DNA from: Clostridium thermobutyricum
GTDB lineage: Bacteria; Bacillota; Clostridia; Ch29
Reading direction: 5' to 3'
Assembly: GCA_016842005.1 (NCBI GenBank)
Contig: JAENYD010000002.1
Coordinates: 1 to 64,000, forward strand
DNA length: 64,000 bases
A program made the position numbers and the translations under genes. Shown in pieces: positions 2,477 through 62,288 of this stretch; position 1 is the stretch's first letter; each line of letters starts with the position of its first letter. The notes beneath the pieces are model-generated. The model ran no database searches and was not told where the DNA came from. It was given only the letters and a program-made list of their open reading frames with translations.

Positions 2477-2529
2477 ACTGCAGAGTTTTTGCGGGAAAGC
2501 ATATGGGAAATCGGAGGGGATATTGCAAG

Positions 2530-3702
2530 ATGTTGAAGCTTATTAAAGGCGGTAGGGTATACAGCGCCGAATACCAAGGGCAAAAGGATGTTCTGATTGT
2601 CGGCGATAAAATAGGGATGATAGACGAGGATATCGATCCTTCAGTGGGTATCCTGGAAGTGGAGGTGATTGACGCTGCAGGGAAGCTGGTGGTGCCGGGA
2701 TTTATAGACCAGCATGTGCATATTATCGGTGGCGGGGGAGAGATGGGCTTTGCAAGCCGTACCCCTGAGATAATGCTGTCTCAGGTAGTTCGGGCAGGGG
2801 TTACAACACTGGTGGGGCTGCTGGGCACCGACGGTACCACCAGGCAGGTGCATTCACTGCTGGCCAAGACAAGGGGCCTGGAGATTGAAGGGATTACCAC
2901 CTATATATACACCGGCGCTTATGAGATTCCCACCAGGACCATAACCGGCAATGTACGGTCGGATATAATTCTGATAGACAAGGTATTGGGTACCGGAGAG
3001 GTTGCCATATCCGACCACCGCTCGTCACAGCCTTCCAGGCAGGAACTGAAGAGGCTTGTGGCAGAGGCCAGGGTGGGGGGCATACTGAGCGGCAAGCCGG
3101 GGATGGTGCATCTCCACGTTGGGGACGGCAGGGACGGGCTTGAGATGGTCTTCGAGATTGTGGAGGAAAGCGAGATACCCGTATCACAGTTTGTCCCCAC
3201 CCATGTCAACAGGCGGGAGAAACTGCTGGAGCAGGCAGTGCGGTTTGCCCTCATGGGCGGGGTAATAGACATTACGGCGGGGGTTAGCCCCACGTCCGGG
3301 GACGGGGACTCGGTCAAATCCAGTACTGCTGTCAGGAGGTGCATAGAGAAAGGAGTGCCTGCAGACAGGATAACCATGAGCTCGGACGGTAACGGCAGTC
3401 TGCCGGAGTTTGACGGGAAAGGGAATGTGGTGGGTATGATGGTCGGCAGTATGGATACCCTGCACCGTGAACTGAAGGACCTGGTGAGGGAGGAAGGGCT
3501 GGACCTGTCCCTGGCTCTGAAGACGGTCACTTCCAATGTAGCCGGAGTGTTGGGCCTGTACCCCCGCAAAGGGCGCATATGTGCCGGCGCGGATGCGGAT
3601 ATAACGGTCCTGGATGAAGGACTGGATATAGAGATGGTATTTGCCAAGGGAAGGAAGATGATGGACAGGGGAGAGGTCATTGTGAAAGGGACTTTTGAGT
3701 AG
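2530..3702 (+). CDS. iadA: Beta-aspartyl (isoaspartyl) dipeptidase
   Basis: A metal-dependent amidohydrolase of 390 residues, the usual size of IadA, which cleaves beta-aspartyl dipeptides left by degradation of damaged proteins. Visible landmarks are the HxH metal motif in FIDQHVHIIGGG (His62, His64), the TGAYEIPTRTITG substrate segment, SDHRSSQPS, the histidine-bearing HLHVGDGRDG and VPTHVNR, and the catalytic Asp in SSDGNGSLPEF. Where E. coli IadA has the carboxylated bridging Lys (GVKCAISDHR) this protein reads GTGEVAISDHR, suggesting Glu there. The ATG at 2530 follows GGAGG (2514-2518) and matches the family N-terminus; an in-frame ATG at 2503 has a poor ribosome site. It fits the peptide-scavenging theme of the window. 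Confidence 0.92.
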   Translation: MLKLIKGGRVYSAEYQGQKDVLIVGDKIGMIDEDIDPSVGILEVEVIDAAGKLVVPGFIDQHVHIIGGGGEMGFASRTPEIMLSQVVRAGVTTLVGLLGTDGTTRQVHSLLAKTRGLEIEGITTYIYTGAYEIPTRTITGNVRSDIILIDKVLGTGEVAISDHRSSQPSRQELKRLVAEARVGGILSGKPGMVHLHVGDGRDGLEMVFEIVEESEIPVSQFVPTHVNRREKLLEQAVRFALMGGVIDITAGVSPTSGDGDSVKSSTAVRRCIEKGVPADRITMSSDGNGSLPEFDGKGNVVGMMVGSMDTLHRELKDLVREEGLDLSLALKTVTSNVAGVLGLYPRKGRICAGADADITVLDEGLDIEMVFAKGRKMMDRGEVIVKGTFE

Positions 3703-3979: not shown

Positions 3980-4126
3980 ATGGATTTTTTAGAAAAAATC
4001 GGGTGGCTGGGACTTCCCGTAAAGACATGGCTGATTATAGGACTGCCATTTGTGCTGTCGGCAGCAGCTCCTTATCTGATAGGCAATCTCCTGATCAAAT
4101 GGGGGAGGGCGGATGACCATGAATAA
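3980..4126 (+). CDS. Small membrane protein preceding the symporter
   Basis: A 48-residue protein with one hydrophobic helix (WLIIGLPFVLSAAAPYLIG) and a polar tail ending RADDHE. It overlaps the start of the sodium/solute symporter by 8 bases, so the two are translationally coupled. Tiny one-helix proteins encoded immediately upstream of SSS-family symporters are a known arrangement (symporter small accessory protein, or DUF3311-type partners); I infer that role from position and size. The start is uncertain: in-frame ATGs at 3944 and 3965 exist, and 3980 has GGGGT at modest spacing. Confidence 0.6.
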   Translation: MDFLEKIGWLGLPVKTWLIIGLPFVLSAAAPYLIGNLLIKWGRADDHE

Positions 4127-5618
4127 ATCCCTTATATATCTCATCTATTTCACCCTTTACACCATATTGATACTGTGGTTCGGCAAGTACGGCATACGCC
4201 GGACCAAGTCAACCCGGGACTTCTACGTGGCGGGGAATTCCCTGGGGCTGGCCGCCAGTATATTCACCTTTGCGGCCACCTGGTTCAGCGCGGCTTCCAT
4301 GCAGGGCCTTACCGGGTCAATGTATGCCTATGGCTATTCAGCGGCTTTGTATGCCGTTATAAGCTGGTTTCTGGGGGCCTCCCTACTGGTGGTCATGTCG
4401 GTGCGTTTAAAGGATTATGATATAGTTACCATTCCCGAATTCTTCAGAGTAAGGTACCAGAGCAGGCTTCTCCAGGCCATGGGGGGTGTGGTGATCCTCA
4501 TCAGCTATATTTTCTATATGATAATACAGATCAGGGGCTTCGGCATAGTCATGACCCAGCTCCTGGACATACCGTATACCCTTTCCATATTCCTGGTATA
4601 CCTGTTCATATTGTATACCACTTTTGGGGGCCTTTTTTCGGTGGCAAGGACGGACGGGGTGAACTTCATACTGATAATACTGGGCACCCTGGTGGCTCTT
4701 TCCCTCATTCTCGGGAACCTGGGCAGTATAACCGATATACACCGCCAGGCCATGCTTATTGATACCCGGCCCTTTGAAGCCTTTCCCACCGCCACTCCGA
4801 GGGGGTCACTGCTGGATCCCTTTGCCCACGGGCTGCAGCCCCTCCTTCTGATTATTACGGTATTCTTCGGCTGGGGCCTGGGTCTTGCAGCCAATCCCCA
4901 GTATGCCATAAGGGTGATTTCCGCCAAGGACAAAAGGACTGCCGTGAGGATGATAGGCCTGTCGGTGCTTGTACTGGCCCTTATATATGTATGCATATTC
5001 ATAATCGGTATAGGCTCAAGGGTGCTGGCACCCAGCATATCCGGCATTACTTCCATTGACGAGGTATTTCCCTATGTAATAAACAATATCGTATACTCAC
5101 CCCTGAGCGGGTTTGTGCTCATAAGTGTAATAGCAGTGGCCATATCCACCGCCAATTCCCAGCTGCTTCTGATAGCCAGCGGTTTCAGCTATGACATATA
5201 TAAAAACTATGTGAATCCTCTGGTCAGCGAACATAAACTGCTCACCATCAACAGGGTGGTAATCTGCGTCGGGGGCACCCTTTCCCTGTTCTTATCCATC
5301 AATCCCCCCAGCAATCTCTTAACCTTCGGGGGTCATGTGTGGGGCATATTTTCATCATCCTTTCTGTTTCCCCTGTACGGCGGCCTGTTCTGGAAGAAGG
5401 CTACCAGGGAAGGGGCTGTGGCATCCTTTTGCGGGGGACTGGCGGGTCTCCTCCTGTTCTACCTTGTATCCCTGTATATAAGGGGCAAATCAGGGTTTTT
5501 AGAGGGTTTTACGGTACACCCCGCTATTTTCGGTGTCTTAACGGCATTCCTGCTGTTTTATCTGGTGAGTATTTTTACTTACAGGGCCGACCGGGGAGGT
5601 AGTGACTTTGAGGTTTGA
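4119..5618 (+). CDS. Sodium:solute symporter (SSS family)
   Basis: A 499-residue polytopic membrane protein with about 13 hydrophobic segments, of the SSS/SLC5 family that includes PutP and PanF. The signature stretch GNSLGLAASIFTFAATWFSAAS near residues 39-60 (TM2) and ISTANSQLLLIASGFSYDIYKNY (about 343-365) are typical. It couples Na+ entry to uptake of an organic solute. Overlap with the following kinase and the adjacent oxoprolinase operon suggest an amino acid or 5-oxoproline-like substrate, but that is inference. The ATG at 4119 is favoured over 4113 by spacing from GGGGGAGGG (4101-4109). Confidence 0.88.
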   Translation: MNKSLIYLIYFTLYTILILWFGKYGIRRTKSTRDFYVAGNSLGLAASIFTFAATWFSAASMQGLTGSMYAYGYSAALYAVISWFLGASLLVVMSVRLKDYDIVTIPEFFRVRYQSRLLQAMGGVVILISYIFYMIIQIRGFGIVMTQLLDIPYTLSIFLVYLFILYTTFGGLFSVARTDGVNFILIILGTLVALSLILGNLGSITDIHRQAMLIDTRPFEAFPTATPRGSLLDPFAHGLQPLLLIITVFFGWGLGLAANPQYAIRVISAKDKRTAVRMIGLSVLVLALIYVCIFIIGIGSRVLAPSISGITSIDEVFPYVINNIVYSPLSGFVLISVIAVAISTANSQLLLIASGFSYDIYKNYVNPLVSEHKLLTINRVVICVGGTLSLFLSINPPSNLLTFGGHVWGIFSSSFLFPLYGGLFWKKATREGAVASFCGGLAGLLLFYLVSLYIRGKSGFLEGFTVHPAIFGVLTAFLLFYLVSIFTYRADRGGSDFEV

Positions 5619-7377
5619 TATAGAGAATAAGATACTTATACCCTTTCTTATCCTGATTATTATACCTACCCTTGTGGTGGGAGGGGTGTTTTACTGGAAC
5701 AGCTACAGGCTTCTTGTAGACAGCCAGACGGATGGGATGGCCAAGGACCTGGATATGATGATGAATTACCTGGACGCCCTGTCCCAGGAAGCGGAGGAAG
5801 GCTTCATATCACGGGGTGAGGCCCAGGACAAGGCGTTGAACTACCTGAAAGAATACTCTGGGAATCGGATCAGTGTTGTGGATAAAAGCGGGATATTGCT
5901 GATCGGTTCGGGGGATATGGACATACCGCCGGCAGAAACAGCGGAAACCCGGTTCAAACAGGTAAATTCCAGTATAATGGCTTTTGCCGAATATCCCCGG
6001 TGGGGATGGACCATAGGCATTGTATCCACCACCCGCAAATTTACCTATGAACTGCTGGAAATGCAGAAATATACTCTGCTGGTAGCCATAATAGGTATTA
6101 TTATAGCGGTGGAATTGAGCATACTGCTGGCCCATAACATTTCCCGCCCCATAAAATCCCTGGCGGAGGTATGTGACAATATTTCGGCGGGGAGGTTTGA
6201 CGGATGGATTCCCATTGAACGGAAGGACGAGATAGGGGTACTGGCCCGGGCCCTCAATAATATGCTTATAAAGCAAAAGGAAAACAATAAGAAACTGGTG
6301 GAAATGAAAAAATCCAATGAGGACATCCTGAGGAGTATAGATATAGGGATAATAGCCATCAATAAGGGGGGCAGGGTAATAGGTATCAACCAGGCAGCGG
6401 AAAATTTCCTTGCAGCAAGGTATATTGTACGGGAAAAGAACGAATACCTGGGGACCTTCTTTTCTCAACTGATGAGGCATCTGAATGCCACCCTGGTAAA
6501 CCAGAGACCGGAATACAATATGGTCTGGCAGCTGGAAGGAGAAGGAGGTATCAGGTATATAGAGGTGAATACCAGTCTCCTCCGCAGTGAGGATGGAAGC
6601 GTAAACGGGGCAATCTGCAGTTTCAGCGATATTACCAACAGGAAAAAGGTGGAGAACAGGATAGAGAGGGTAAACAGGCTGGTGTCCCTGGGTGAACTGG
6701 CTGCGGGATTGGCCCACGAAATAAGGAATCCCCTGGCAGGGATGAAGACAAGCTCCCAGGTGCTGTATAACAGATTCGGCGACAATCCCTCCAACCTGTC
6801 CCTTATCGAAGGAATACTGCATGAGATCGACCGGTTGAATTTTCTGATCACAGACCTGCTGAATTTCGCCAGGCCGCATCCGCCCGATCGCAGGGAGACG
6901 AATATAGCAGAGGTGGTTAAGAAGGCGGTGGAGCTTACCGAAAACAGGATGATCAAGCATGGCATAAAACTGGATATGGAGGTCGGGACGTCAGATACCC
7001 GTGTATATGTGGACAGGAACCAGATGGAACAGGTATTTCTGAATATAATCATAAATGCCATCAAGGCCATGGAAGACGGAGGGGTACTTTCCATAAAGAT
7101 CTATCACAAGGGGGAAGGGCAGCCCCGCAGGCTCAAGATTGCCTTTTCGGATACGGGGACGGGTATAGACAGCGAAAATATAAACAGGATTTTTGACCCC
7201 TTTTATACTACCGACCCCGGGGGAACCGGTCTTGGGTTATCGGTGGTTCACAAGCTTGTTACAGAGAATGATGGGGATATAGAGGTGTTCAGCAAGGTTG
7301 ACCATGGGACTACTTTTGTGTTAGGATTGCCCCTTTCCGGAGGTGAAGACAGTGAAGAAAAGAATTCTGATAATTGA
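5608..7377 (+). CDS. Membrane sensor histidine kinase with HAMP and PAS domains
   Basis: About 589 residues. A first membrane helix (about 10-30), an extracytoplasmic sensor of about 120 residues and a second helix (about 155-178) are followed by HAMP (SRPIKSLAEVCDNISAG), a PAS domain (about 240-350), the phosphoacceptor helix LAHEIRNPLAG with His370, and a GHKL ATPase domain (N box NIIINAIKAM, G boxes DTGTGI and GGTGLGLS). The start overlaps the symporter stop. TTG at 5608 has proper spacing from GGGGAGG, whereas GTG at 5602 is too close. It probably senses the substrate carried by the symporter and phosphorylates the overlapping response regulator. Confidence 0.93.
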   Translation: MRFDIENKILIPFLILIIIPTLVVGGVFYWNSYRLLVDSQTDGMAKDLDMMMNYLDALSQEAEEGFISRGEAQDKALNYLKEYSGNRISVVDKSGILLIGSGDMDIPPAETAETRFKQVNSSIMAFAEYPRWGWTIGIVSTTRKFTYELLEMQKYTLLVAIIGIIIAVELSILLAHNISRPIKSLAEVCDNISAGRFDGWIPIERKDEIGVLARALNNMLIKQKENNKKLVEMKKSNEDILRSIDIGIIAINKGGRVIGINQAAENFLAARYIVREKNEYLGTFFSQLMRHLNATLVNQRPEYNMVWQLEGEGGIRYIEVNTSLLRSEDGSVNGAICSFSDITNRKKVENRIERVNRLVSLGELAAGLAHEIRNPLAGMKTSSQVLYNRFGDNPSNLSLIEGILHEIDRLNFLITDLLNFARPHPPDRRETNIAEVVKKAVELTENRMIKHGIKLDMEVGTSDTRVYVDRNQMEQVFLNIIINAIKAMEDGGVLSIKIYHKGEGQPRRLKIAFSDTGTGIDSENINRIFDPFYTTDPGGTGLGLSVVHKLVTENDGDIEVFSKVDHGTTFVLGLPLSGGEDSEEKNSDN

Positions 7378-8758
7378 CGATGAAAGAACCCTGTGTATCT
7401 CCATGCAGGAAGGCCTTAAAGATATGGGCTACTGCGTCCAGACTGCCCTGACTGGTGAAGAGGGACTCAGCAAAGTGATATCCTTCCAGCCCCATCTCGT
7501 TTTCCTGGATTTGAGGCTTCCCGGCATGGGTGGTCTGGAGGTGCTGAAAGAGATAAAGAATATTGACAGTAATACCGAGGTAATAATAATGACCGCCTAT
7601 GCGGATATTAAAACAGCGGTATCAGCCATAAAACACGGGGCCCTGGATTATTTCACCAAGCCCTTTGAACTGGAGCAGGTGGAAGTGATTATTCAAAAGG
7701 CCTTCGAAAACATCAGCCTGAAGGAGCAGACATACCTGTTAAAGGAGGACAAGAAGAGAAGAATAACGCCCATAATAGGAAAACACCCGTCCATGATGGA
7801 GGTTATGAAACAGATCAGGATACTGGCCCGGCACGATGATGCCACAGTTCTGATAAGGGGGGAAACCGGAACAGGCAAGGGACGGGTGGCATATGACCTC
7901 CACTACTGCAGTAAGAGGAAGGACAAGCCTTTTGTGGAGATAAACTGCGGCACCATACCCGCGAACCTGATAGAAAGCGAACTGTTCGGGTTCGAAAGGA
8001 ATGCCTTCACCGGTGCCCGGCAGTCCAAAAAAGGGCTCATGGAACTGGCTGATGAAGGCAGTGTATTTCTGGATGAGATAGGGGAGCTTTTCCCGGATAT
8101 GCAGGTAAAACTCCTGCGGTTCCTGGAGGAGAGGAGGTTCAAAAGGATAGGGGGTCTCCGGGACATTGAAGTGGATGTGAGAATAATAGCTGCAACCAAT
8201 ATGGACCTGGAGAAAGCCATTGAGAGGAAGGAATTCAGGGAAGACCTCTACTACAGACTGAATGTGGTTCCAATCAATCTCCCCCCTTTGAGGGAAAGAG
8301 GAAAGGATGTTATACTGCTGGCTGAGTATTACCTGCAGGAGTACAGCCGGAAGATGGGCAAGTCCATGTCCGGCCTTTCCCCCGAAGTGGAGAAATTATT
8401 CCTTGAATACCGCTGGCCGGGAAACATACGGGAATTGAGGAACATCATCGAAAGAGTGCTTATACTCTATAATGGTGAAAGGCTTGAATTGAAGCACCTG
8501 CCCGAGGAAATCACAGAAGGGAAATATACGGGGGAAGCTTTACGGAATGGTGTGCCCGGAGAGGGCGGTTATCCTTCCGGTGACGGTTTTTCCCTGGAAA
8601 AAATACTGGAGGACATAGAGAAGAAATATATACGGGAGGCCCTGGAGAAGACCCGCTGGAATAATACCAGGGCGGCGGAACTGCTGGGCATCAGCAGGTA
8701 CAGCCTCCAGAGGAGGATAGAGAAGTATTTTGGCAAACCGGGTGATTGCGCACAATAA
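7352..8758 (+). CDS. NtrC-family sigma-54-dependent response regulator
   Basis: A 468-residue activator. The receiver domain (1-120) carries the Asp9-Asp10 acidic pair and phosphoacceptor Asp53 (VFLDLRLPG). The AAA+ domain (about 135-375) has Walker A GETGTGKG and Walker B VFLDEIGE. A Fis-type helix-turn-helix closes the protein (NNTRAAELLGISRYSLQRRI). The sigma-54-contacting loop reads NAFTGA instead of the usual GAFTGA. GTG at 7352 lies 8 bases after GGAGG (7339-7343) and is preferred over GTG at 7343; the gene overlaps the kinase. Likely target: the -24/-12 promoter at 8928 and the ycsI-Nramp-pxpABC operon. Confidence 0.94.
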   Translation: MKKRILIIDDERTLCISMQEGLKDMGYCVQTALTGEEGLSKVISFQPHLVFLDLRLPGMGGLEVLKEIKNIDSNTEVIIMTAYADIKTAVSAIKHGALDYFTKPFELEQVEVIIQKAFENISLKEQTYLLKEDKKRRITPIIGKHPSMMEVMKQIRILARHDDATVLIRGETGTGKGRVAYDLHYCSKRKDKPFVEINCGTIPANLIESELFGFERNAFTGARQSKKGLMELADEGSVFLDEIGELFPDMQVKLLRFLEERRFKRIGGLRDIEVDVRIIAATNMDLEKAIERKEFREDLYYRLNVVPINLPPLRERGKDVILLAEYYLQEYSRKMGKSMSGLSPEVEKLFLEYRWPGNIRELRNIIERVLILYNGERLELKHLPEEITEGKYTGEALRNGVPGEGGYPSGDGFSLEKILEDIEKKYIREALEKTRWNNTRAAELLGISRYSLQRRIEKYFGKPGDCAQ

Positions 8759-8784
8759 GTGCGAAATCACCCGGTTTTTATTTT
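8738..8784 (+). terminator. Terminator overlapping the end of the response regulator gene
   Basis: CCGGGTGATT...AATCACCCGG stem with an added GCGCAC/GTGCG pairing around the stop codon, followed by TTTTTATTTT. It separates the regulator genes from the downstream operon. Confidence 0.9.
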
Positions 8785-8927: not shown

Positions 8928-8943
8928 TGGCATGCAAATTGCT
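8928..8943 (+). promoter_or_regulatory. Sigma-54 (-24/-12) promoter for the 5-oxoproline operon
   Basis: TGGCATGCAAATTGCT matches TGGCACG-N4-TTGCW, with the invariant GG and GC in the right register. It lies about 75 bases before the ycsI-like start and just downstream of a sigma-54-type response regulator gene. Confidence 0.8.
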
Positions 8944-9018: not shown

Positions 9019-9807
9019 TTGAGCGAATATAGAGACGCAACGCCGGCCAGAATGAGGGAACTGATCAGGAAAGAGCAATACACAGAACCCACTTCGGGGG
9101 TTTGTTCCGGTTATGCCCAGGCAAACCTGGTGATACTGCCCCGGGACCTGGCCCTGGATTTTATGATATTCGCCCAGAGAAATCCGAAGCCGTGTCCCGT
9201 ACTGGACGTGACCGAAGCAGGAAATCCGGAGCCAAAACTAATGGCCCCGGGGGCGGATATAAGGACGGATATACCGAGGTACAGGGTATACCGGAAAGGG
9301 ATAATGGTGGATGAGCCCCTGAATATCCTGGATTACTGGAGAGAAGACCTGGTGGGTTTCCTGCTGGGATGCAGCTTTACCTTTGAGAGGGCCCTGATGG
9401 ATGCGGGCATTCCCGTGAGAAACATTGAGGAAAACTGTAATGTTCCCATGTACATAACCAGGATACAGTGCACAGAGGGCGGGGTTTTCCGGGGACCCCT
9501 GGTGGTGAGTATGAGGCCTGTTCCCGGAAGGCTGGTACCGGAAGCCATAAGAAGCACCGCGAGGTATCCTGCCGTTCACGGTGCCCCGGTGCATGTGGGA
9601 GACCCGGAGGCCATAGGTATAAAAGACATTGATAAACCCGACTTCGGAGACAGGGTTACCATCAACAAAGGGGAGATACCGGTTTTCTGGGCGTGCGGTG
9701 TTACGCCCCAGGCCGTCGCAATGAATGTGAAGCCGGAAATAATGATAACCCATTCGCCGGGCCATATGTTCATAACCGACATCAGTGACAGAGAACTGCA
9801 AACCTAA
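9019..9807 (+). CDS. YcsI/DUF1445 putative hydro-lyase
   Basis: A 262-residue cytosolic protein of the UPF0317/DUF1445 family (B. subtilis YcsI; the mammalian relative is D-glutamate cyclase, which converts D-glutamate to 5-oxo-D-proline). Family-like segments include TSGVCSGYAQANLVILP, FLLGCSFTFERAL, YITRIQCTEGG, FWACGVTPQAVAM and ITHSPGHMFITD. It is the first gene after the sigma-54 promoter and precedes an Nramp-like transporter and pxpABC. The same association is seen in the B. subtilis ycs/kip region, which ties it to 5-oxoproline metabolism; the exact reaction is inferred. TTG at 9019 is chosen because AGGAAGGAGG (9001-9010) sits 8 bases upstream. Confidence 0.88.
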   Translation: MSEYRDATPARMRELIRKEQYTEPTSGVCSGYAQANLVILPRDLALDFMIFAQRNPKPCPVLDVTEAGNPEPKLMAPGADIRTDIPRYRVYRKGIMVDEPLNILDYWREDLVGFLLGCSFTFERALMDAGIPVRNIEENCNVPMYITRIQCTEGGVFRGPLVVSMRPVPGRLVPEAIRSTARYPAVHGAPVHVGDPEAIGIKDIDKPDFGDRVTINKGEIPVFWACGVTPQAVAMNVKPEIMITHSPGHMFITDISDRELQT

Positions 9808-9923: not shown

Positions 9924-11180
9924 ATGAGTACTGAAGTTGAAGTCAAAAAAGGCGGGTTTGCCGAAAAACTGAAGAATATCGGGCCCGGGGCACTGGTAGC
10001 CGCGGCTTTCATCGGCCCGGGGACTGTCACCACATGTACCATTTCCGGGGCGAGTTTCGGCTATGCACTGCTGTGGGCAATGCTTTTCTCCATTATTGCC
10101 ACAATGGTGCTGCAGGAGATGTCAGCCAGGCTGGGCATTGTAACCAGAGAGGGGCTGGGAGAGGCCATCAGAAACCAGTTTGAAAATCCCACTTTGAAAT
10201 GGATTGGCATAGCACTGGTTATATCGGCTATAGGTATAGGATGTGCCGCCTATGAAACAGGCAATATACTGGGAGGGGCCATGGGGCTGGCTACCCTGTC
10301 CGGTATAAAAGGCACCGTGTGGGGACCTCTTATGGGTATCGTTGCCTTCGGATTCCTCTGGAAAGGAAGCTACAAGGCCATAGAAAAGGTGCTTATAAGT
10401 CTTGTAATAATCATGAGCATCACCTTTATTCTCACAGCAATCATAATTAAACCTGATTTCGGGGCAATAATGAAAGGATTCTTCGTACCCAGCATCCCGG
10501 AAGGGGGACTTGTGCTGGCCATATCCCTCATAGGTACAACGGTTGTTCCTTACAACCTGTTCCTCCATGCCTCCGCGGTGCAGGAGAAATGGAGCGATGC
10601 CGCTGAACTTTCCAATTCCAGGCTGGATACAGTTTTATCCATTGGCCTTGGCGGACTGATATCGGCTGCCATAATAATCACTGCTGCCGCAGCCTTCCAT
10701 GGTACAGGGGTCAAACCGGCCAATGCCGGTGAAATGGCGGTACAGCTGGAGCCTCTTCTGGGGTCATGGGCAAAATGGTTCTTTGCCATAGGCCTGTTTT
10801 CAGCGGGTTTCTCTTCCTCCATTACCGCTCCGCTGGCAGCAGCCTATGCCACTGCGGGAGCCCTTGGCTGGAAAAGGAATATGCAGGCTACGAACTTCAA
10901 GTCAATATGGATTATAGTACTGCTGGTTGGCATAATAGGTTCAGCCCTGGGCAAGAGTCCCGTTCCCGTTATAATATTCGCCCAGGCCGCCAACGGCATA
11001 CTTCTTCCCATAGTTGCAATATTCCTTATCCTTGTAATGAACAACAGGAATAGACTGAAAGAATATGCCAACAGCGGACTGCAGAATCTACTGGGCGGCA
11101 TTGTGGTTCTGGTGGCTTTGATGCTGGGAATAAGGGGCCTGTATTATGCGTTCGTTAAATTAATGGATATGATAGGCTAA
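9924..11180 (+). CDS. Nramp-family transporter lacking canonical metal ligands
   Basis: A 418-residue membrane protein with about 11 helices and the Nramp fold: TM1 region IGPGALVAAAFIGPGTVTTC and TM6 region GTTVVPYNLFLHASAV. Metal-transporting Nramps have DPGN in TM1 and MPHN in TM6. Here these read GPGT and VPYN, so the Asp, Asn and Met ligands are missing. With its position between ycsI and pxpA, as for B. subtilis ycsG, this suggests that it carries an organic substrate such as 5-oxoproline rather than Mn2+ or Fe2+. The fold assignment is firm, the substrate is inference. The ATG follows GAGGAGG with good spacing. Confidence 0.9.
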   Translation: MSTEVEVKKGGFAEKLKNIGPGALVAAAFIGPGTVTTCTISGASFGYALLWAMLFSIIATMVLQEMSARLGIVTREGLGEAIRNQFENPTLKWIGIALVISAIGIGCAAYETGNILGGAMGLATLSGIKGTVWGPLMGIVAFGFLWKGSYKAIEKVLISLVIIMSITFILTAIIIKPDFGAIMKGFFVPSIPEGGLVLAISLIGTTVVPYNLFLHASAVQEKWSDAAELSNSRLDTVLSIGLGGLISAAIIITAAAAFHGTGVKPANAGEMAVQLEPLLGSWAKWFFAIGLFSAGFSSSITAPLAAAYATAGALGWKRNMQATNFKSIWIIVLLVGIIGSALGKSPVPVIIFAQAANGILLPIVAIFLILVMNNRNRLKEYANSGLQNLLGGIVVLVALMLGIRGLYYAFVKLMDMIG

Positions 11181-11187
11181 AATACCT

Positions 11188-11215
11188 GCGGCCTGCTCAA
11201 TCCCGGGCAGGCTGC
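11188..11215 (+). other. Intra-operon hairpin
   Basis: GCGGCCTGC/GCAGGCTGC pair across an 10-base loop between the Nramp-like gene and pxpA, without a strong T-run. It probably acts as an mRNA-stability or partial-termination element. Confidence 0.45.
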
Positions 11216-11245
11216 ATTATTTCAACCAGTGGGAGGTGATTGTTT

Positions 11246-12010
11246 TTGATAACTGTTGATATTAACAGTGACCTTGGAGAAAGTTTCGGCAGCTATAGAA
11301 TAGGGAACGACCAGCAGGTTATCCGGCATGTAACTTCGGTGAACATTGCCTGCGGCTTTCATGCAGGGGACCCCCTGGTAATGGAGAAAACGGTAAAATC
11401 CGCCCTTGAAGAAGGGGTGGCGGTTGGAGCCCATCCCGGGTTCCCCGACCTCATGGGTTTCGGCCGGCGCAATATGGTCATAAGCGCTGAAGAGGCAAGG
11501 GCCTATATCATATATCAGGTAGGAGCCCTGTACGGGTTTGTGAAGGCGCTGGGAGGAGAGATGCAGCATGTGAAGCCCCACGGTGCTTTCTACAATATGG
11601 CTGCAAAGGACTATAAACTGGCACGGGCCGTTGCCGAAGGGGTATATTCGCTGGACAGCGGGTTGATACTCATGGGTCTTGCGGGATCCCAGCTTATAAA
11701 GGCGGGACAGGACGCGGGCCTGCGTACTGCCAGTGAAGTGTTTGCAGACAGGGCCTATGCCGCTGACGGCACCCTTGTACCCAGGGGTACCCCGGGAGCC
11801 CTGATAGAGGATAAACAGCTTGCCATATCAAGGGTACTGGATATGGTGTTGAGAGGAAAGGTAGAGGCAATAGAAGGAACCGAAATTGACATCAGGGCGG
11901 AAACCATCTGTATTCACGGTGACAGCCAGGATGCCCTGGATTTTGCCGTGAGCATCCGGGAAGCCCTGCATCAAGCCGGTGTGGAGTTAAAGGCATTAAA
12001 ACAGAGGTGA
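11246..12010 (+). CDS. pxpA: 5-oxoprolinase subunit A
   Basis: LamB/YcsF family, 254 residues. With PxpB and PxpC it forms the prokaryotic ATP-dependent 5-oxoprolinase that opens 5-oxo-L-proline to L-glutamate. Characteristic segments are VDINSDLGESFG at the N-terminus, NIACGFHAGDP, VGAHPGFPDLMGFGRR and KPHGAFYN. TTG at 11246 gives the family-typical N-terminus and sits about 7 bases after GGGAGGTGA; TTG at 11240 is too close. It lies in tight order with pxpB and pxpC. Confidence 0.95.
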   Translation: MITVDINSDLGESFGSYRIGNDQQVIRHVTSVNIACGFHAGDPLVMEKTVKSALEEGVAVGAHPGFPDLMGFGRRNMVISAEEARAYIIYQVGALYGFVKALGGEMQHVKPHGAFYNMAAKDYKLARAVAEGVYSLDSGLILMGLAGSQLIKAGQDAGLRTASEVFADRAYAADGTLVPRGTPGALIEDKQLAISRVLDMVLRGKVEAIEGTEIDIRAETICIHGDSQDALDFAVSIREALHQAGVELKALKQR

Positions 12011-12016
12011 TACGGT

Positions 12017-12766
12017 ATGTATGAAAAGCCAAGATACCTGCCCTCGGGGGACAGCGCACTGATTATTGAACTGGGGAACAGCATAGAACCGCAAATAAAC
12101 CGGAACATCAGGCAGATTGTTTATCTGCTGGAAAAAGAAGCCATTGACGGGGTTGTTGAATGGGTTCCCACCTACCGTTCCATAATGTTGCTGTACGACC
12201 CGGCAAAAATAGAGTATGGTCAACTGGTGAACAAACTGGAAGAGATAGAGCGCCGGAGGGAGGACATAAAATTTCCCCCTCCCCTGGTAACCGAAATTCC
12301 CACAGCATACGGAGGGGAATATGGTCCGGACATTGAATATGTAGCCGAATATAACAATATTTCGGTTGAAAGAATTATCCATGTCCACAGCAGCACAAAC
12401 TATCTTATCTATATGCTCGGGTTTACACCCGGATTTGTCTATCTTGGTGGGATGGACGACGGGATTGCGACCCCCAGGCTGGAAACCCCCAGGGAGCGGA
12501 TTACGGCAGGAAGTGTGGGTATTGCAGGCAAGCAGACGGGTATCTATCCTATAGACAGTCCCGGTGGCTGGCGCCTTATCGGCAGGACGCCGGTGAAGCT
12601 GTTTGACCCTGACAGGGATGAACCGGTACTGTTGAAGGCGGGAAATTATCTGAGGTTTATCCCAATAGACACGGATGAGTACAGGGAAATCGAAGAAGCA
12701 GTACGGCAGAAAAGTTACCGGGTAAAGACTTATCCCCTTAAGGAAGGTGAAGCGCATGGGTACTAA
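12017..12766 (+). CDS. pxpB: 5-oxoprolinase subunit B
   Basis: A 249-residue protein of the allophanate hydrolase subunit 1/KipI family. It contains LPSGDSALIIELG at the N-terminus and the family core LGFTPGFVYLGGMD followed by PRLETPRERI, AGSVGIAGKQTGIYP and SPGGWRLIGRTP. The B. subtilis homologue KipI also inhibits the sporulation kinase KinA; whether that applies here cannot be told. Six bases separate it from pxpA, and its 3' end overlaps pxpC by 11 bases. Confidence 0.95.
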   Translation: MYEKPRYLPSGDSALIIELGNSIEPQINRNIRQIVYLLEKEAIDGVVEWVPTYRSIMLLYDPAKIEYGQLVNKLEEIERRREDIKFPPPLVTEIPTAYGGEYGPDIEYVAEYNNISVERIIHVHSSTNYLIYMLGFTPGFVYLGGMDDGIATPRLETPRERITAGSVGIAGKQTGIYPIDSPGGWRLIGRTPVKLFDPDRDEPVLLKAGNYLRFIPIDTDEYREIEEAVRQKSYRVKTYPLKEGEAHGY

Positions 12767-13781
12767 AATGATTGTGGAGCACCCCGGGCTGCTTACAACA
12801 GTACAGGACCTGGGGCGTTTCGGATACCAGCAGTACGGTATGCCTGTAGCGGGAGCCATGGACGGTTATGCTCTGCAGGCAGCCAATATACTGGCAGGAA
12901 CCCCCCGGGGGGAAGGGGCTCTTGAGATAACATTTTCCGGTTTTTCGGTAAGGTTCCAGGGTAGCTGCAGGGTGGCAATAACAGGAGGAGACCTGGGACC
13001 CCGGCTGAATAACAGGGATATCGAACCATGGCAGTCTTTACAGGTAGAATCCGGTGACGTGCTCGGTTTTACCGGGGTTAAAAAGGGATGCAGGGCATAC
13101 CTGGCGGTGGAAGGCGGTATCAAGGTCCCTGCTGTTATGGGAAGTAAATCCACATATATCAGAGGAAGGCTTGGAGGCTACAGCGGGAGAAAACTTTTAA
13201 AGGGAGATGTGCTGGAAGCGGGGGATACCGATACGGTCGATGTGTTGCCCTGTATTAAGGTGCCCCGGGAATTCATACCCGATTATGACAGTGAAGTTAC
13301 GGTCCGGGCCATAGCGGGGCCCCAGGATGATTATTTTGAAGAAGAACAGGTCAGAAAATTTTTTTCGGCACAGTACCGGGTAACCCATCAGTGCGACAGG
13401 ATGGGATACAGGCTTGAGGGGCCTGAGATAAAGCACAAAAAAGGGCCGGATATAATCTCTGACGGGATAGCCCTCGGAGCTGTTCAGGTACCGGGGCACG
13501 GTCAGCCCATCGTAATGATGGCGGACAGGCAGACAACAGGGGGCTATACCAAGATCGCAAACGTAATCTCGGTGGATATACCCTATCTTGCCCAGTTGAA
13601 GCCGGGAGACAGGGTCAGTTTTAAAGAGACAGACATGGAAGAGGCCCGGAAGCTTTATATGGAAAGGGAAAGGCTCCTGGACAGACTGTCCCGTTTTGTG
13701 GAGAACAGGGACAATGTGACCCGTTACCTCATAAGGGTGAAGGGCAGAGAATTCAGTGTAACGGTCCGGGAGATAGAGTGA
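12756..13781 (+). CDS. pxpC: 5-oxoprolinase subunit C
   Basis: A 341-residue protein of the allophanate hydrolase subunit 2/KipA family, the third subunit of 5-oxoprolinase. It opens with EHPGLLTTVQDLGRFGYQ and PVAGAMDGYALQAAN, both family hallmarks, and contains GAVQVPGHGQPIVMMADRQTTGGY. The ATG at 12756 is preferred to the GTG at 12747 because AAGGAAGG then has suitable spacing. A terminator follows at 13821, closing the operon. Confidence 0.95.
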   Translation: MGTKMIVEHPGLLTTVQDLGRFGYQQYGMPVAGAMDGYALQAANILAGTPRGEGALEITFSGFSVRFQGSCRVAITGGDLGPRLNNRDIEPWQSLQVESGDVLGFTGVKKGCRAYLAVEGGIKVPAVMGSKSTYIRGRLGGYSGRKLLKGDVLEAGDTDTVDVLPCIKVPREFIPDYDSEVTVRAIAGPQDDYFEEEQVRKFFSAQYRVTHQCDRMGYRLEGPEIKHKKGPDIISDGIALGAVQVPGHGQPIVMMADRQTTGGYTKIANVISVDIPYLAQLKPGDRVSFKETDMEEARKLYMERERLLDRLSRFVENRDNVTRYLIRVKGREFSVTVREIE

Positions 13782-13805: not shown

Positions 13806-13827
13806 CTATTATCAATTTAAGTCCTGG
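13806..13827. repeat. 22-bp repeat, copy 1
   Basis: CTATTATCAATTTAAGTCC plus TGG matches 31212-31233 at 20 of 22 positions. Both copies lie just after the last gene of a catabolic gene series. Confidence 0.5.
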
Positions 13828-13847
13828 GGTAGCCCAGGACTTTTTTC
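13821..13847 (+). terminator. Terminator of the 5-oxoproline operon
   Basis: GTCCTGGG/CCCAGGAC stem with a 4-base loop and a T6 run. Confidence 0.9.
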
Positions 13848-58994: not shown

Positions 58995-61013
58995 TTGAAA
59001 AAGATTGTAGTCATAAGCATTGAAAGAAGAGCGAAGGAAAAATACATGGAGAATTTAAAATTCTTTTTCGATGGTTATGCGGAGGTAACGGGAATCAGTA
59101 TAAAGGATACAGATACCATCGAAAAGGTAGATGCTGACGTGGCGGTTGTGGCCAACCAAACCATTTTGAACAAAGCCAAGGCCTTCATCAAAGACAACAC
59201 GCGAATAGTCTATGTGGATATTTCCTTTTGTCATGAAAATATTGAAAAACTGAAGAAAATTGACCGGGGTGCCAAAGTGCTGTTGGTTGATTATAAAGAG
59301 TACATGGCCATATCGCTGGTTGGACTTCTAAGTGAATATGGCATTCAGCATGTGGATTTTATTCCCTTTGCTCCCGATATGAGACTGGAAAGCATTGGCA
59401 ACATAGATGAAATTAAAACCATTGTGACCCCCGGGCTCTTTAACTGTATTCCGCCCAATCTGCTGAGTGCAGGGAAAAGAATTATAGACATCGGTTACAG
59501 GAAAATAGATATTTCAACCATAAGCAATATAGCTTCAAAGCTGGAAATCAATGATGAGATTTTCAATGAAAAAATCATAAACTATTCCCGTGGTCTCGTC
59601 CATAAGAGCAACAGTATCACGAATATCCTGAAAAATTTGAAGGAAAACAGCAGTCAGATTGATGCCATATTGAGAAATATTGATGATGGCGTTATTATCG
59701 TCAACGGAGAAAACAAAATCCTTCACTGTAACAGGTTTGTATGCTCTATAATGGGAGAAAAGGACTGCTACCCCAATAGCAGTGCATGTAAAACGAACCA
59801 TATATGCAAAAAGTTTTTAGTCATGGAGCCTGTGGAAAACCGTATAATCAAGCTGGATGGAAACCAAAGGGTCCTTATAGTTACAAAGAAAATCACCAAA
59901 GTATACAATGAGCTGAGGAGTTCCACCATTATAGTAAAAAACGCAGAGAAGATTCATGATATGGAGATAAGCCTCAGGAAGAATCTGTTCGCCCGCGGAT
60001 ATGTTGCCAAGTACACCTTTGACGATATAGTCTATAAGGGAAATGCCATGACCGACTGTGTGCAAAAGGCAAAAAAAATAGCAGCCATCGACTCGACGAC
60101 TCTGATAACCGGCGATACCGGTACCGGCAAAGAACTGTTGGCCCACGCTATCCACAATAGTTCAAAACGAAGGGAATTTCCGTTTATAGCAATAAACTGT
60201 GCAGCTATATCGGAAAATCTGCTGGAAAGCGAACTTTTCGGATATGAGGAAGGAGCCTTTACAGGCGCAAAAAAAGGCGGCAAGAAAGGCCTTTTTGAGC
60301 TGGCCCATAAAGGTACGATTTTCCTGGATGAAATAGGCGACATTTCCCAGGCTACTCAGGTAAAGCTCCTGCGGGTTCTGCAGGAAAAAGAGGTTATGCG
60401 GATAGGCGGAATAAATATTGTTCCTGTGGACGTGAGAGTTATTGTTGCTACCAACAGAGACCTGGAAGAACTGGTAGAAAAGAAGGTATTCAGAAAAGAC
60501 CTGTATTACAGGCTCAATGTTTTCACCATCAATATACCCCCGTTAACAGCCCGCAAAGAAGACATTCCCCTGCTGATAGAATCAATCATGGACGAGTATC
60601 GGGTGCATAATAAGAAAATCAGCGTCGGACTGATGAAATATCTTATTGATTATGAATGGAAGGGGAATGTCAGGGAATTGCGTAACTGTATCGAATACCT
60701 TATTTTTATGGGAGGCAATGAACTTACCTTTGACGACCTTCCTGTTTCCATGAAGATATCCGAGGACAATGGAGATAAAAAAGGCAATGTCTTGATGGGG
60801 GAGCTGTTTGAAGAAGAAAAACAGATAGCGGATAAGGTGCTGGAAATCTGTACTTATAGGAGCGTTGGCCGCCGCGGTTTGAAAAAATTAATTTCCCAGC
60901 AGGGGTTTGAAATTTCCGAATATAGACTGCGCAAGATACTGGAATATCTCAGGAAGAAGAACCTGATCTATTATGGTAAGGGGAGAGAGGGGATTAAGAA
61001 AGTCGGATATTAA
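58995..61013 (+). CDS. Sigma-54-dependent activator with winged-helix-like C-terminus
   Basis: 672 residues. An N-terminal sensor of about 200 residues made of alternating strands and helices (possibly PrpR_N-like, uncertain) is followed by a PAS domain from about 221, with several Cys (DCYPNSSACKTNHICKKF). The AAA+ domain (about 342-580) has Walker A GDTGTGKE, intact GAFTGA and Walker B IFLDEIGD. The C-terminal 65 residues (RRGLKKLISQQGFEISEYRLRKIL, in part) look like a winged helix, not the usual Fis motif. TTG start with AAGGAGG. The target is probably the sigma-54 promoter at 61228. Confidence 0.9.
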   Translation: MKKIVVISIERRAKEKYMENLKFFFDGYAEVTGISIKDTDTIEKVDADVAVVANQTILNKAKAFIKDNTRIVYVDISFCHENIEKLKKIDRGAKVLLVDYKEYMAISLVGLLSEYGIQHVDFIPFAPDMRLESIGNIDEIKTIVTPGLFNCIPPNLLSAGKRIIDIGYRKIDISTISNIASKLEINDEIFNEKIINYSRGLVHKSNSITNILKNLKENSSQIDAILRNIDDGVIIVNGENKILHCNRFVCSIMGEKDCYPNSSACKTNHICKKFLVMEPVENRIIKLDGNQRVLIVTKKITKVYNELRSSTIIVKNAEKIHDMEISLRKNLFARGYVAKYTFDDIVYKGNAMTDCVQKAKKIAAIDSTTLITGDTGTGKELLAHAIHNSSKRREFPFIAINCAAISENLLESELFGYEEGAFTGAKKGGKKGLFELAHKGTIFLDEIGDISQATQVKLLRVLQEKEVMRIGGINIVPVDVRVIVATNRDLEELVEKKVFRKDLYYRLNVFTINIPPLTARKEDIPLLIESIMDEYRVHNKKISVGLMKYLIDYEWKGNVRELRNCIEYLIFMGGNELTFDDLPVSMKISEDNGDKKGNVLMGELFEEEKQIADKVLEICTYRSVGRRGLKKLISQQGFEISEYRLRKILEYLRKKNLIYYGKGREGIKKVGY

Positions 61014-61227: not shown

Positions 61228-61243
61228 TGGCATAATTATTGCT
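61228..61243 (+). promoter_or_regulatory. Sigma-54 promoter of the DUF5058 operon
   Basis: TGGCATAATTATTGCT fits the -24/-12 consensus with both GG and GC in register, 65 bases before the first gene. Upstream, CCGCC/GGCGG near 61082-61097 is a possible activator site. Confidence 0.8.
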
Positions 61244-61307: not shown

Positions 61308-62288
61308 ATGGAAAAGAAGCTTATACTGGATGACACAGTCAGAACCATTGGCAAAAGGACGGATGGTTACATTAACTTTGGACAAAAGCCCGATGGTTCC
61401 CAATTCAGAATTCCTGTTATTGTCATAGAAGGTGATAAAGACGGACCTACGCTGCTGGTCGATGCCTGTACCCATGGCGATGAATACGAAGGAGCTGAAG
61501 CCATCATTCAGATGGCTGACAAATTGCAGACAGAGACCTTTGCAGGCACCTTTATAGGCGTTCCTGCATTGAACTTTGAAGCCTTCAGTTGCATAAGCAG
61601 GGTATCTCTCTCGGACGGGTTCAATCTTAACAGAATTTTTCCGGGTAACAAAGAAACCTATATCACTCACAGGCTGGCCTATATCTATATGGAGCGTGTG
61701 GTAGAATATGCAGACTTTGTTATTACATTTCATGGAGGAGGGGATGTTCTTCACCTGGAGCCTATCATTGGCTATCTGCCGGGCGATGACGAGATAAGCA
61801 GGAAAACTCTGGAACTGGCAAAGGCCTTCAACCAGAAATTTATCTGGCGTATGCAGAATCTGCCCTTTAACGGGGTTAGCAGCATTGAATATAAGAATAT
61901 ACTGGGCATTCCTTCGATTCTGCCCGAAGTGGGTTCCCATTGCGGCAGACTGTATGACAGGGAGAAGAATGTAAAGATTTGCTATGACGGCATCACCAAT
62001 GTAATGCTCGCATTAAAGATGCTGGATGGAGAGTTGCCGGTACCTGTGGAGAAGATGCATGTGGAGCTGCACTATCTGCATTCCCGCAACGGCGGTATAC
62101 AACGGCTTGTCAAGAAGAAGGGGGAAATTGTTGAGGAAGGCGAAATCCTCGGTGAAATCTATGATGTGTTTGGGAACAAGATAGAAGAATTGAAGGCTCC
62201 CTATAGGGGCGTTGTGATCGGCTTCTGGAGTGTTCCGGTTATCCGTCCTGGAGACTGGTGGTATCTATATGCCAAAATTCTGGATTGA
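61308..62288 (+). CDS. Succinylglutamate desuccinylase/aspartoacylase-family hydrolase
   Basis: A 326-residue M14-like zinc hydrolase. CTHGDEYEG gives the His and Glu zinc ligands, and VITFHGGGDVLHLEP the third histidine region; LPEVGSHCGRL is near the catalytic Glu. It probably removes an N-acyl or related group from an amino acid. First gene behind the sigma-54 promoter and before two membrane proteins. ATG at 61308; GAGGAGGA lies upstream at 11 bases and AAAGGAA closer. Confidence 0.87.
   Translation: MEKKLILDDTVRTIGKRTDGYINFGQKPDGSQFRIPVIVIEGDKDGPTLLVDACTHGDEYEGAEAIIQMADKLQTETFAGTFIGVPALNFEAFSCISRVSLSDGFNLNRIFPGNKETYITHRLAYIYMERVVEYADFVITFHGGGDVLHLEPIIGYLPGDDEISRKTLELAKAFNQKFIWRMQNLPFNGVSSIEYKNILGIPSILPEVGSHCGRLYDREKNVKICYDGITNVMLALKMLDGELPVPVEKMHVELHYLHSRNGGIQRLVKKKGEIVEEGEILGEIYDVFGNKIEELKAPYRGVVIGFWSVPVIRPGDWWYLYAKILD

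Follow-up and report, generated by a model that had tools for sequence, protein, structure and literature searches.

A conserved Nramp-superfamily protein without metal ligands, encoded with 5-oxoprolinase in Clostridium thermobutyricum, is a proposed 5-oxoproline importer

The pxp operon and its regulatory features

In Clostridium thermobutyricum, an intact open reading frame (ORF) of 418 aa was listed at positions 9924-11180 of the forward strand of the window, i.e. of the whole 64,000-nucleotide stretch of DNA analysed. Its product is an Nramp protein by Pfam, matching PF01566 over the full length of the model (profile positions 1-356 of 357) with 351.8 bits against a curated cut-off of 29.8, and NCBIfam, like Pfam, names it as a metal transporter. 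We refer to the group of this protein as lineage W. The features at the locus are the following:

4113..5618, +, SSS-family (sodium:solute symporter) protein, 501 aa (Pfam PF00474, 171.7 bits)
5602..7377, +, AtoS-like sensor histidine kinase with HAMP, PAS and HisKA domains and a weak sCache_2 match (Pfam; NCBIfam AtoS-like model below cut-off)
7343..8758, +, AtoC-like response regulator with sigma-54 interaction domain (Pfam Sigma54_activat, 224 bits)
8735..8777, +, strong intrinsic terminator over the regulator stop codon (-29.8 kcal/mol, z -7.5, followed by a U-rich tail)
8928..8943, +, sigma-54 promoter TGGCATGCAAATTGCT, an exact match to the consensus TGGCAYRNNNNTTGCW
9019..9807, +, ycsI, D-glutamate cyclase family (Pfam PF07286, 225 bits; NCBIfam PRK05463, 418 bits)
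9924..11180, +, lineage W transporter of the Nramp superfamily, lacking metal ligands; a proposed importer of 5-oxoproline
10014..10025, +, TM1 motif GPGT, residues 31-34, in place of DPGN (alignments; AlphaFold helix break 30-31)
10263..10265, +, Asn114 at the TM3 Glu position (DraNramp E134, BfraNramp E116; alignments)
10545..10556, +, TM6 motif VPYN, residues 208-211, in place of MPH (alignments; AlphaFold helix break 208)
11187..11216, +, stable hairpin in the transporter-pxpA intergenic region (-23.7 kcal/mol, z -4.5, with a weak U tract)
11240..12010, +, pxpA, 5-oxoprolinase subunit (Pfam LamB_YcsF, 338.6 bits; NCBIfam PxpA)
12017..12766, +, pxpB, 5-oxoprolinase subunit (NCBIfam TIGR00370, 214 bits, over cut-off)
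12747..13781, +, pxpC, 5-oxoprolinase subunit (NCBIfam TIGR00724, 324.5 bits, over cut-off; PxpC equivalog model below cut-off)
13819..13842, +, intrinsic terminator at the operon end (-18.3 kcal/mol, z -4.7, T tail)

An earlier note on this DNA had placed the transporter gene between ycsI and pxpA under a sigma-54 promoter. Both points were confirmed: ORFs, Pfam and NCBIfam give the order ycsI-Nramp-pxpA-pxpB-pxpC, and the exact consensus site lies 75 bp upstream of the ycsI start, with the gene for a sigma-54 activator ending at 8758. A chance match is unlikely, because an exact site (TGGCACAAAAATTGCT) also lies 58 bp upstream of the first operon gene at the locus of the closest relative (L244, transporter 72% identical to the window protein), and more exact sites occur near the transporter gene in L228, L231, L233, and L243. 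The order at L244 is SSS-kinase-regulator, sigma-54 site, pxpA, ycsI, transporter, pxpB, pxpC. The hairpin behind the transporter gene is a possible attenuator or processing site, and it might tune the ratio of enzyme to transporter expression. A Mn-sensing riboswitch was rejected, as no Rfam family reached its gathering score anywhere in the window.

The SSS gene shares 17 bp with the next ORF and starts an overlapping SSS-kinase-regulator unit. The same unit, with AtoS-like kinase and sigma-54 regulator, recurs by pxp operons of both Nramp lineages described below (L210, L228, L231, L233, L244, L250, L253), a recurrence that points to a transporter-coupled sensor. Two other parts of the window were inspected by eye. 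Upstream of the SSS gene, ORF 2503-3702 resembles an isoaspartyl-dipeptidase-type amidohydrolase. A second exact sigma-54 site (61228-61243) lies ~65 bp upstream of ORF 61308-62288, which resembles an AstE/AspA-type deacylase and is itself preceded by a sigma-54 activator-like ORF (58995-61013).

Central site and place in the Nramp superfamily

Ligand positions were mapped through a sequence alignment to BfraNramp and profile alignments to BfraNramp, EleNRMT and DraNramp. TM1 of the window protein reads F-I-G31-P32-G33-T34, with G31 aligned to the TM1 Asp and T34 to the TM1 Asn; TM6 reads T205-T-V-V208-P-Y210-N211, with V208 at the Met and Y210 at the His; the TM3 Glu pairs with N114. Confidence in the register is lowest for TM3, where Cellier's alignment may instead pair the Glu with E111, three residues before N114; 35 of 50 W proteins have Glu at position 111. 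The three structure-anchored alignments agree and place no Asp, Glu or Met near the ligand positions in TM1 or TM6, so a shifted ligand set was rejected and the replacement of both metal motifs, as the earlier note had read them, stands. The window protein thus has GPGT where canonical Nramp/MntH proteins have DPGN, and VPYN and N114 where they have MPH in TM6 and Glu in TM3. The NRMT signature (DxxG in TM1 with TxxA/T in TM6) is absent as well, the corresponding residues being GxxT and TxxV, with no Asp.

The earlier note had also proposed modelling the central site. The AlphaFold model (pLDDT 89.6, pTM 0.89) predicts an Nramp-like fold with helix breaks at residues 30-31 and 208. Together with the structure search, it assigns the protein to the LeuT fold/APC superfamily, with TM1 and TM6 predicted to be unwound. 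Its closest PDB structures are Nramps, then other LeuT-fold transporters, with the amino-acid transporter ApcT first among these.

Across 50 W proteins, G31, T205, V208, Y210, and N211 are each invariant and T34 is found in 49. For the 80 named loci this conservation is partly built in, since they were retrieved by TM1 and TM6 peptide patterns. However, all 19 W members collected without motif selection carry Gly31, Thr or Ser34, Val208, and Tyr210, and none of the 76 canonical or NRMT-like relatives shows this motif state; it is therefore not a chance state. Judged from these alignments, the W central site is conserved, not decayed. H215 and D235, equivalent to H216 and D238 of E. coli MntH, are retained in W, and position 209 varies among W sub-branches (P/G/T), being Gly in all 11 haloarchaeal proteins of the neighbourhood set.

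Maximum-likelihood trees of 85 and 82 proteins, unrooted and midpoint-drawn, place the metal-type proteins (canonical and NRMT-like) on one side of a branch with SH-aLRT 98, or 95 with ligand columns removed. W is a single group (97 and 95, respectively), and together with one further relative (L008) it joins the metal group (95 and 93). No other group in the unrooted tree lies closer than W to the metal-carrying Nramps as a whole. In a published NSS-rooted tree, Nramp-related proteins are paraphyletic to canonical Nramps (PMC12873925). Given these two placements, the absence of metal ligands in W is probably ancestral and not a loss within the metal-transporter family. The description "without metal ligands" in the earlier note was correct for the protein, but the absence was already known at group level (PMC12873925, PMC10606218).

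By its residues, W appears to correspond to the Slc11 "orphan" outgroup of Cellier. The available part of that paper describes Y-N in TM3, V-Y in TM6 and invariant TM3 glycines (PMC10606218), and Y110, N114, V208, Y210, and the TM3 glycines of W fit this description, the comparison being one of published residues. No substrate is proposed for the orphan group in that part of the text, and a preprint treats such Nramp relatives as likely metal transporters (PMC13060092). The NRMT Mg2+ transporters (EleNRMT, PDB 7QIA) share with W the fold (TM-score 0.84 and 0.88) and the replacement of M230, but they keep the TM1 Asp and, in EleNRMT, also the TM3 Glu (PMC8806188), neither of which is found in W. 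The closest PDB sequence is a canonical Nramp/MntH protein (clade B BfraNramp, PDB 10KY); these proteins have the same fold but carry the DPGN and MPH ligands and show no oxoprolinase linkage in our set.

Two pxp-linked lineages and their gene neighbourhoods

The earlier note named ycsG-type homologues for alignment, a kinship that was not borne out. The window protein is ~23% identical to the B. subtilis-type YcsG protein, and orthology was rejected given this identity and a separate lineage in the tree. In a search of 150 Bacillales-order genomes, the window type was found in only four, and a second type, ~25% identical to it, was also found within pxp operons. One genome (L249), with its genes arranged as in B. 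subtilis (pxpA, Nramp, ycsI, pxpB, pxpC), carries the second type, as do all 44 genomes of its genus; one of these has a 404-residue ORF at 457.8 kb of its contig, which we take to be the position of ycsG in B. subtilis 168. A 404-residue YcsG-like chain in PDB 9A52, a model of the YcsG-FabL pair, is 20% identical to the window model by Foldseek. From the gene order, the genus-wide occurrence, the ORF position and this chain, YcsG was placed in the second lineage, which we call Y. C. glutamicum PxpT was placed there by its 50% identity to YcsG, as given in the available text of PMC13274462; no close YcsG-type protein was found among 296 actinobacterial genomes.

The resemblance between the lineages is in context and site. 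YcsG (= MntG), PxpT and C. difficile PxpG are, like W, Nramp-superfamily proteins encoded with pxpABC, as the window gene is, and often with ycsI, and the YcsG-type proteins examined have no metal ligands (site residues GPGF/GGYI/N). In contrast, they are only ~23% identical to W and form a separate long branch (SH-aLRT 100). A single W plus Y clade is not rejected by the AU test (p 0.43) and has no support in the trees. Alkalihalobacillus algicola has both W and Y, each with its own pxp genes. The separation of W from YcsG/PxpT is apparently first made here and is new as far as we searched.

We compared neighbourhoods within 1.45 kb for 100 distinct W, 49 Y, 38 canonical, and 38 NRMT-like proteins. 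PxpABC or hydantoinase A/B adjoins W in 75 cases out of 100, compared with none of the canonical (0/38) or Mg-type, NRMT-like (0/38) Nramps (0/76; Fisher p 3e-28, uncorrected for kinship). The W neighbours are pxp genes in 57, hydantoinase A/B in 18, an arginase-family gene in 6 and none of these in 19; Y lies beside pxp in 47 of 49. Hydantoinase A/B was identified by Pfam and from an annotated plasmid of Haloferax, on which the stop of the Nramp gene overlaps the hydantoinase start. This family is unrelated to PxpABC and includes the OplAH-type 5-oxoprolinases; for Haloferax HydA/HydB the best models are caprolactamase, far below cut-off, and 5-oxoproline is a putative substrate. The hydantoinase context requires at least four changes on the W tree, occurring in haloarchaea, Bacteroidia, and Actinobacteria; in the last, ycsI is often present too (four hydantoinase loci). 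A lactam substrate is argued for most strongly by the occurrence of two unrelated enzyme families with a shared reaction type next to one and the same carrier. As far as our searches went, the assignment of W to oxoprolinase operons and its double linkage to PxpABC and hydantoinase A/B are new.

N114 is replaced by Asp in one single-origin Bacillales group of W, with an arginase-family gene adjacent in six of eight cases; no named ureohydrolase model scores this enzyme above its cut-off. This sub-branch, whose description here is new within the scope of our searches, likely has a different substrate, perhaps a guanidino compound. Asp114 together with the arginase-family neighbour was seen in L058, L059, L060, L062, L075, and L083, some of which also adjoin a YheO-like PAS regulator. 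In one SAR324 locus (L033), the W gene adjoins a nitrilase-family enzyme, a DUF2848 protein and a GntR regulator, a possible substrate clue.

Proposed 5-oxoproline import and alternative readings

We consider it likely that the window gene encodes a LeuT-fold importer of 5-oxoproline feeding the PxpABC of its own operon, with the sigma-54 activator and sensor kinase encoded upstream switching the operon on. PxpABC is 5-oxo-L-prolinase. Imported 5-oxoproline (pyroglutamate) would be converted by this ATP-dependent enzyme to glutamate as a nitrogen and carbon source, and the upstream regulator would act at the sigma-54 site. The backbone of unwound TM1 (G31-P32-G33-T34) may bind the substrate carboxylate in the manner of APC-superfamily amino-acid transporters, while N114, T205, T206, Y210, and N211 would contact the lactam, and H+ or Na+ could serve as the driving ion. 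Observed or computed here are the order of the genes, the exact match to the sigma-54 consensus, an Nramp fold by prediction, the lack of metal ligands, the conserved alternative site and the two enzyme neighbours.

B. subtilis YcsG has reportedly been linked to 5-oxoproline use in earlier work. In C. glutamicum, deletion of PxpT, called an NRAMP-family protein, abolished growth on 5-oxoproline and complementation restored it, and a pxp-linked Nramp protein is needed for 5-oxoproline use in two species, according to the available text, whose authors "cannot exclude" metal transport (PMC13274462). An organic substrate such as 5-oxoproline, which the earlier note had raised, is a proposal well supported by neighbourhood, conserved non-metal site and tree; PxpT and YcsG precede it as proposals. 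Against import, the 5-oxoproline genetics come from a lineage only ~23% identical to W, and some W members have neither PxpABC nor hydantoinase nearby. In the literature we found no measured transport activity of any lineage W protein.

A divalent-metal importer supplying Mn2+ or Mg2+ as cofactor to the adjacent ATP-dependent enzymes would agree with the Pfam and NCBIfam labels, with the retained H215 and D235, and with the window's genome, which has no other Nramp and thus no canonical MntH. A 2023 study, in the text available, takes YcsG as a Mn2+ importer, mainly from raised cell Mn on overexpression, and suggests a polar effect as a possible cause of the earlier 5-oxoproline phenotype (PMC10448178); A. 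baumannii MumT, an Nramp protein in a related operon, was also reported to import Mn2+ (PMC5050338). Missing metal ligands are not discussed in the available parts of PMC13274462 or PMC10448178. We nevertheless regard metal import as quite unlikely: other, conserved residues stand in place of the TM1 Asp and Asn, the TM6 Met and His and the TM3 Glu, whereas even the Mg2+ carrier EleNRMT retains its Asp and Glu (PMC8806188); none of the 76 canonical or NRMT-like Nramps lies beside these enzymes; and the genome has one ZnuA-type metal ABC binding protein. Import of a related compound (5-oxo-D-proline, another lactam, a hydantoin or a pyroglutamyl peptide), differing by sub-branch, is unlikely too, but a little less so. 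It is favored by ycsI within the operon, by the range of hydantoinase A/B (hydantoins, lactams, oxoproline), and by sub-branch variation at P209 (P/G/T) and N114 (N/D), one sub-branch lying by an arginase-family gene, whereas PxpABC is by far the commonest neighbour. We give very little credence to the SSS symporter (4113-5618) being the 5-oxoproline importer, with the Nramp protein doing another job such as efflux. Its unit does accompany pxp operons of either Nramp lineage, but most W-pxp loci have no SSS homologue nearby, and the SSS gene stands in its own terminator-closed unit with the kinase, from which we suggest a role as sensing partner.

Import of 5-oxoproline by W would give a testable substrate to the orphan group beside the metal-carrying Nramps. 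It also bears on the conflict over YcsG (5-oxoproline versus Mn2+, "MntG"), since neither pxp-linked lineage has the aspartate of TM1 or the metal-binding methionine of TM6; our site analysis, made on sequences, favors an organic substrate for both W and Y. Such import further bears on the evolutionary origin of a metal transporter out of an organic-solute fold. We tentatively entertain, with more doubt than belief, that the Asp-less branch beside the metal Nramps comprises carriers of 5-oxoproline and related organic acids, that metal transport arose by gain of the TM1 aspartate on an organic scaffold, and that Asn to Asp at TM3 marks a switch to a cationic guanidino-type substrate. For a large number of bacterial and archaeal proteins, the name "Nramp family divalent metal transporter" given by automatic annotation is probably incorrect; the RefSeq name of the Haloferax W protein is divalent metal transporter.

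More Nramp-superfamily lineages without the TM1 Asp were also seen (L180-L184, L121, L148-L152), with the motif pairs GPGT/VPNT, GPGS/SIVG, and GAGD/GTLT.
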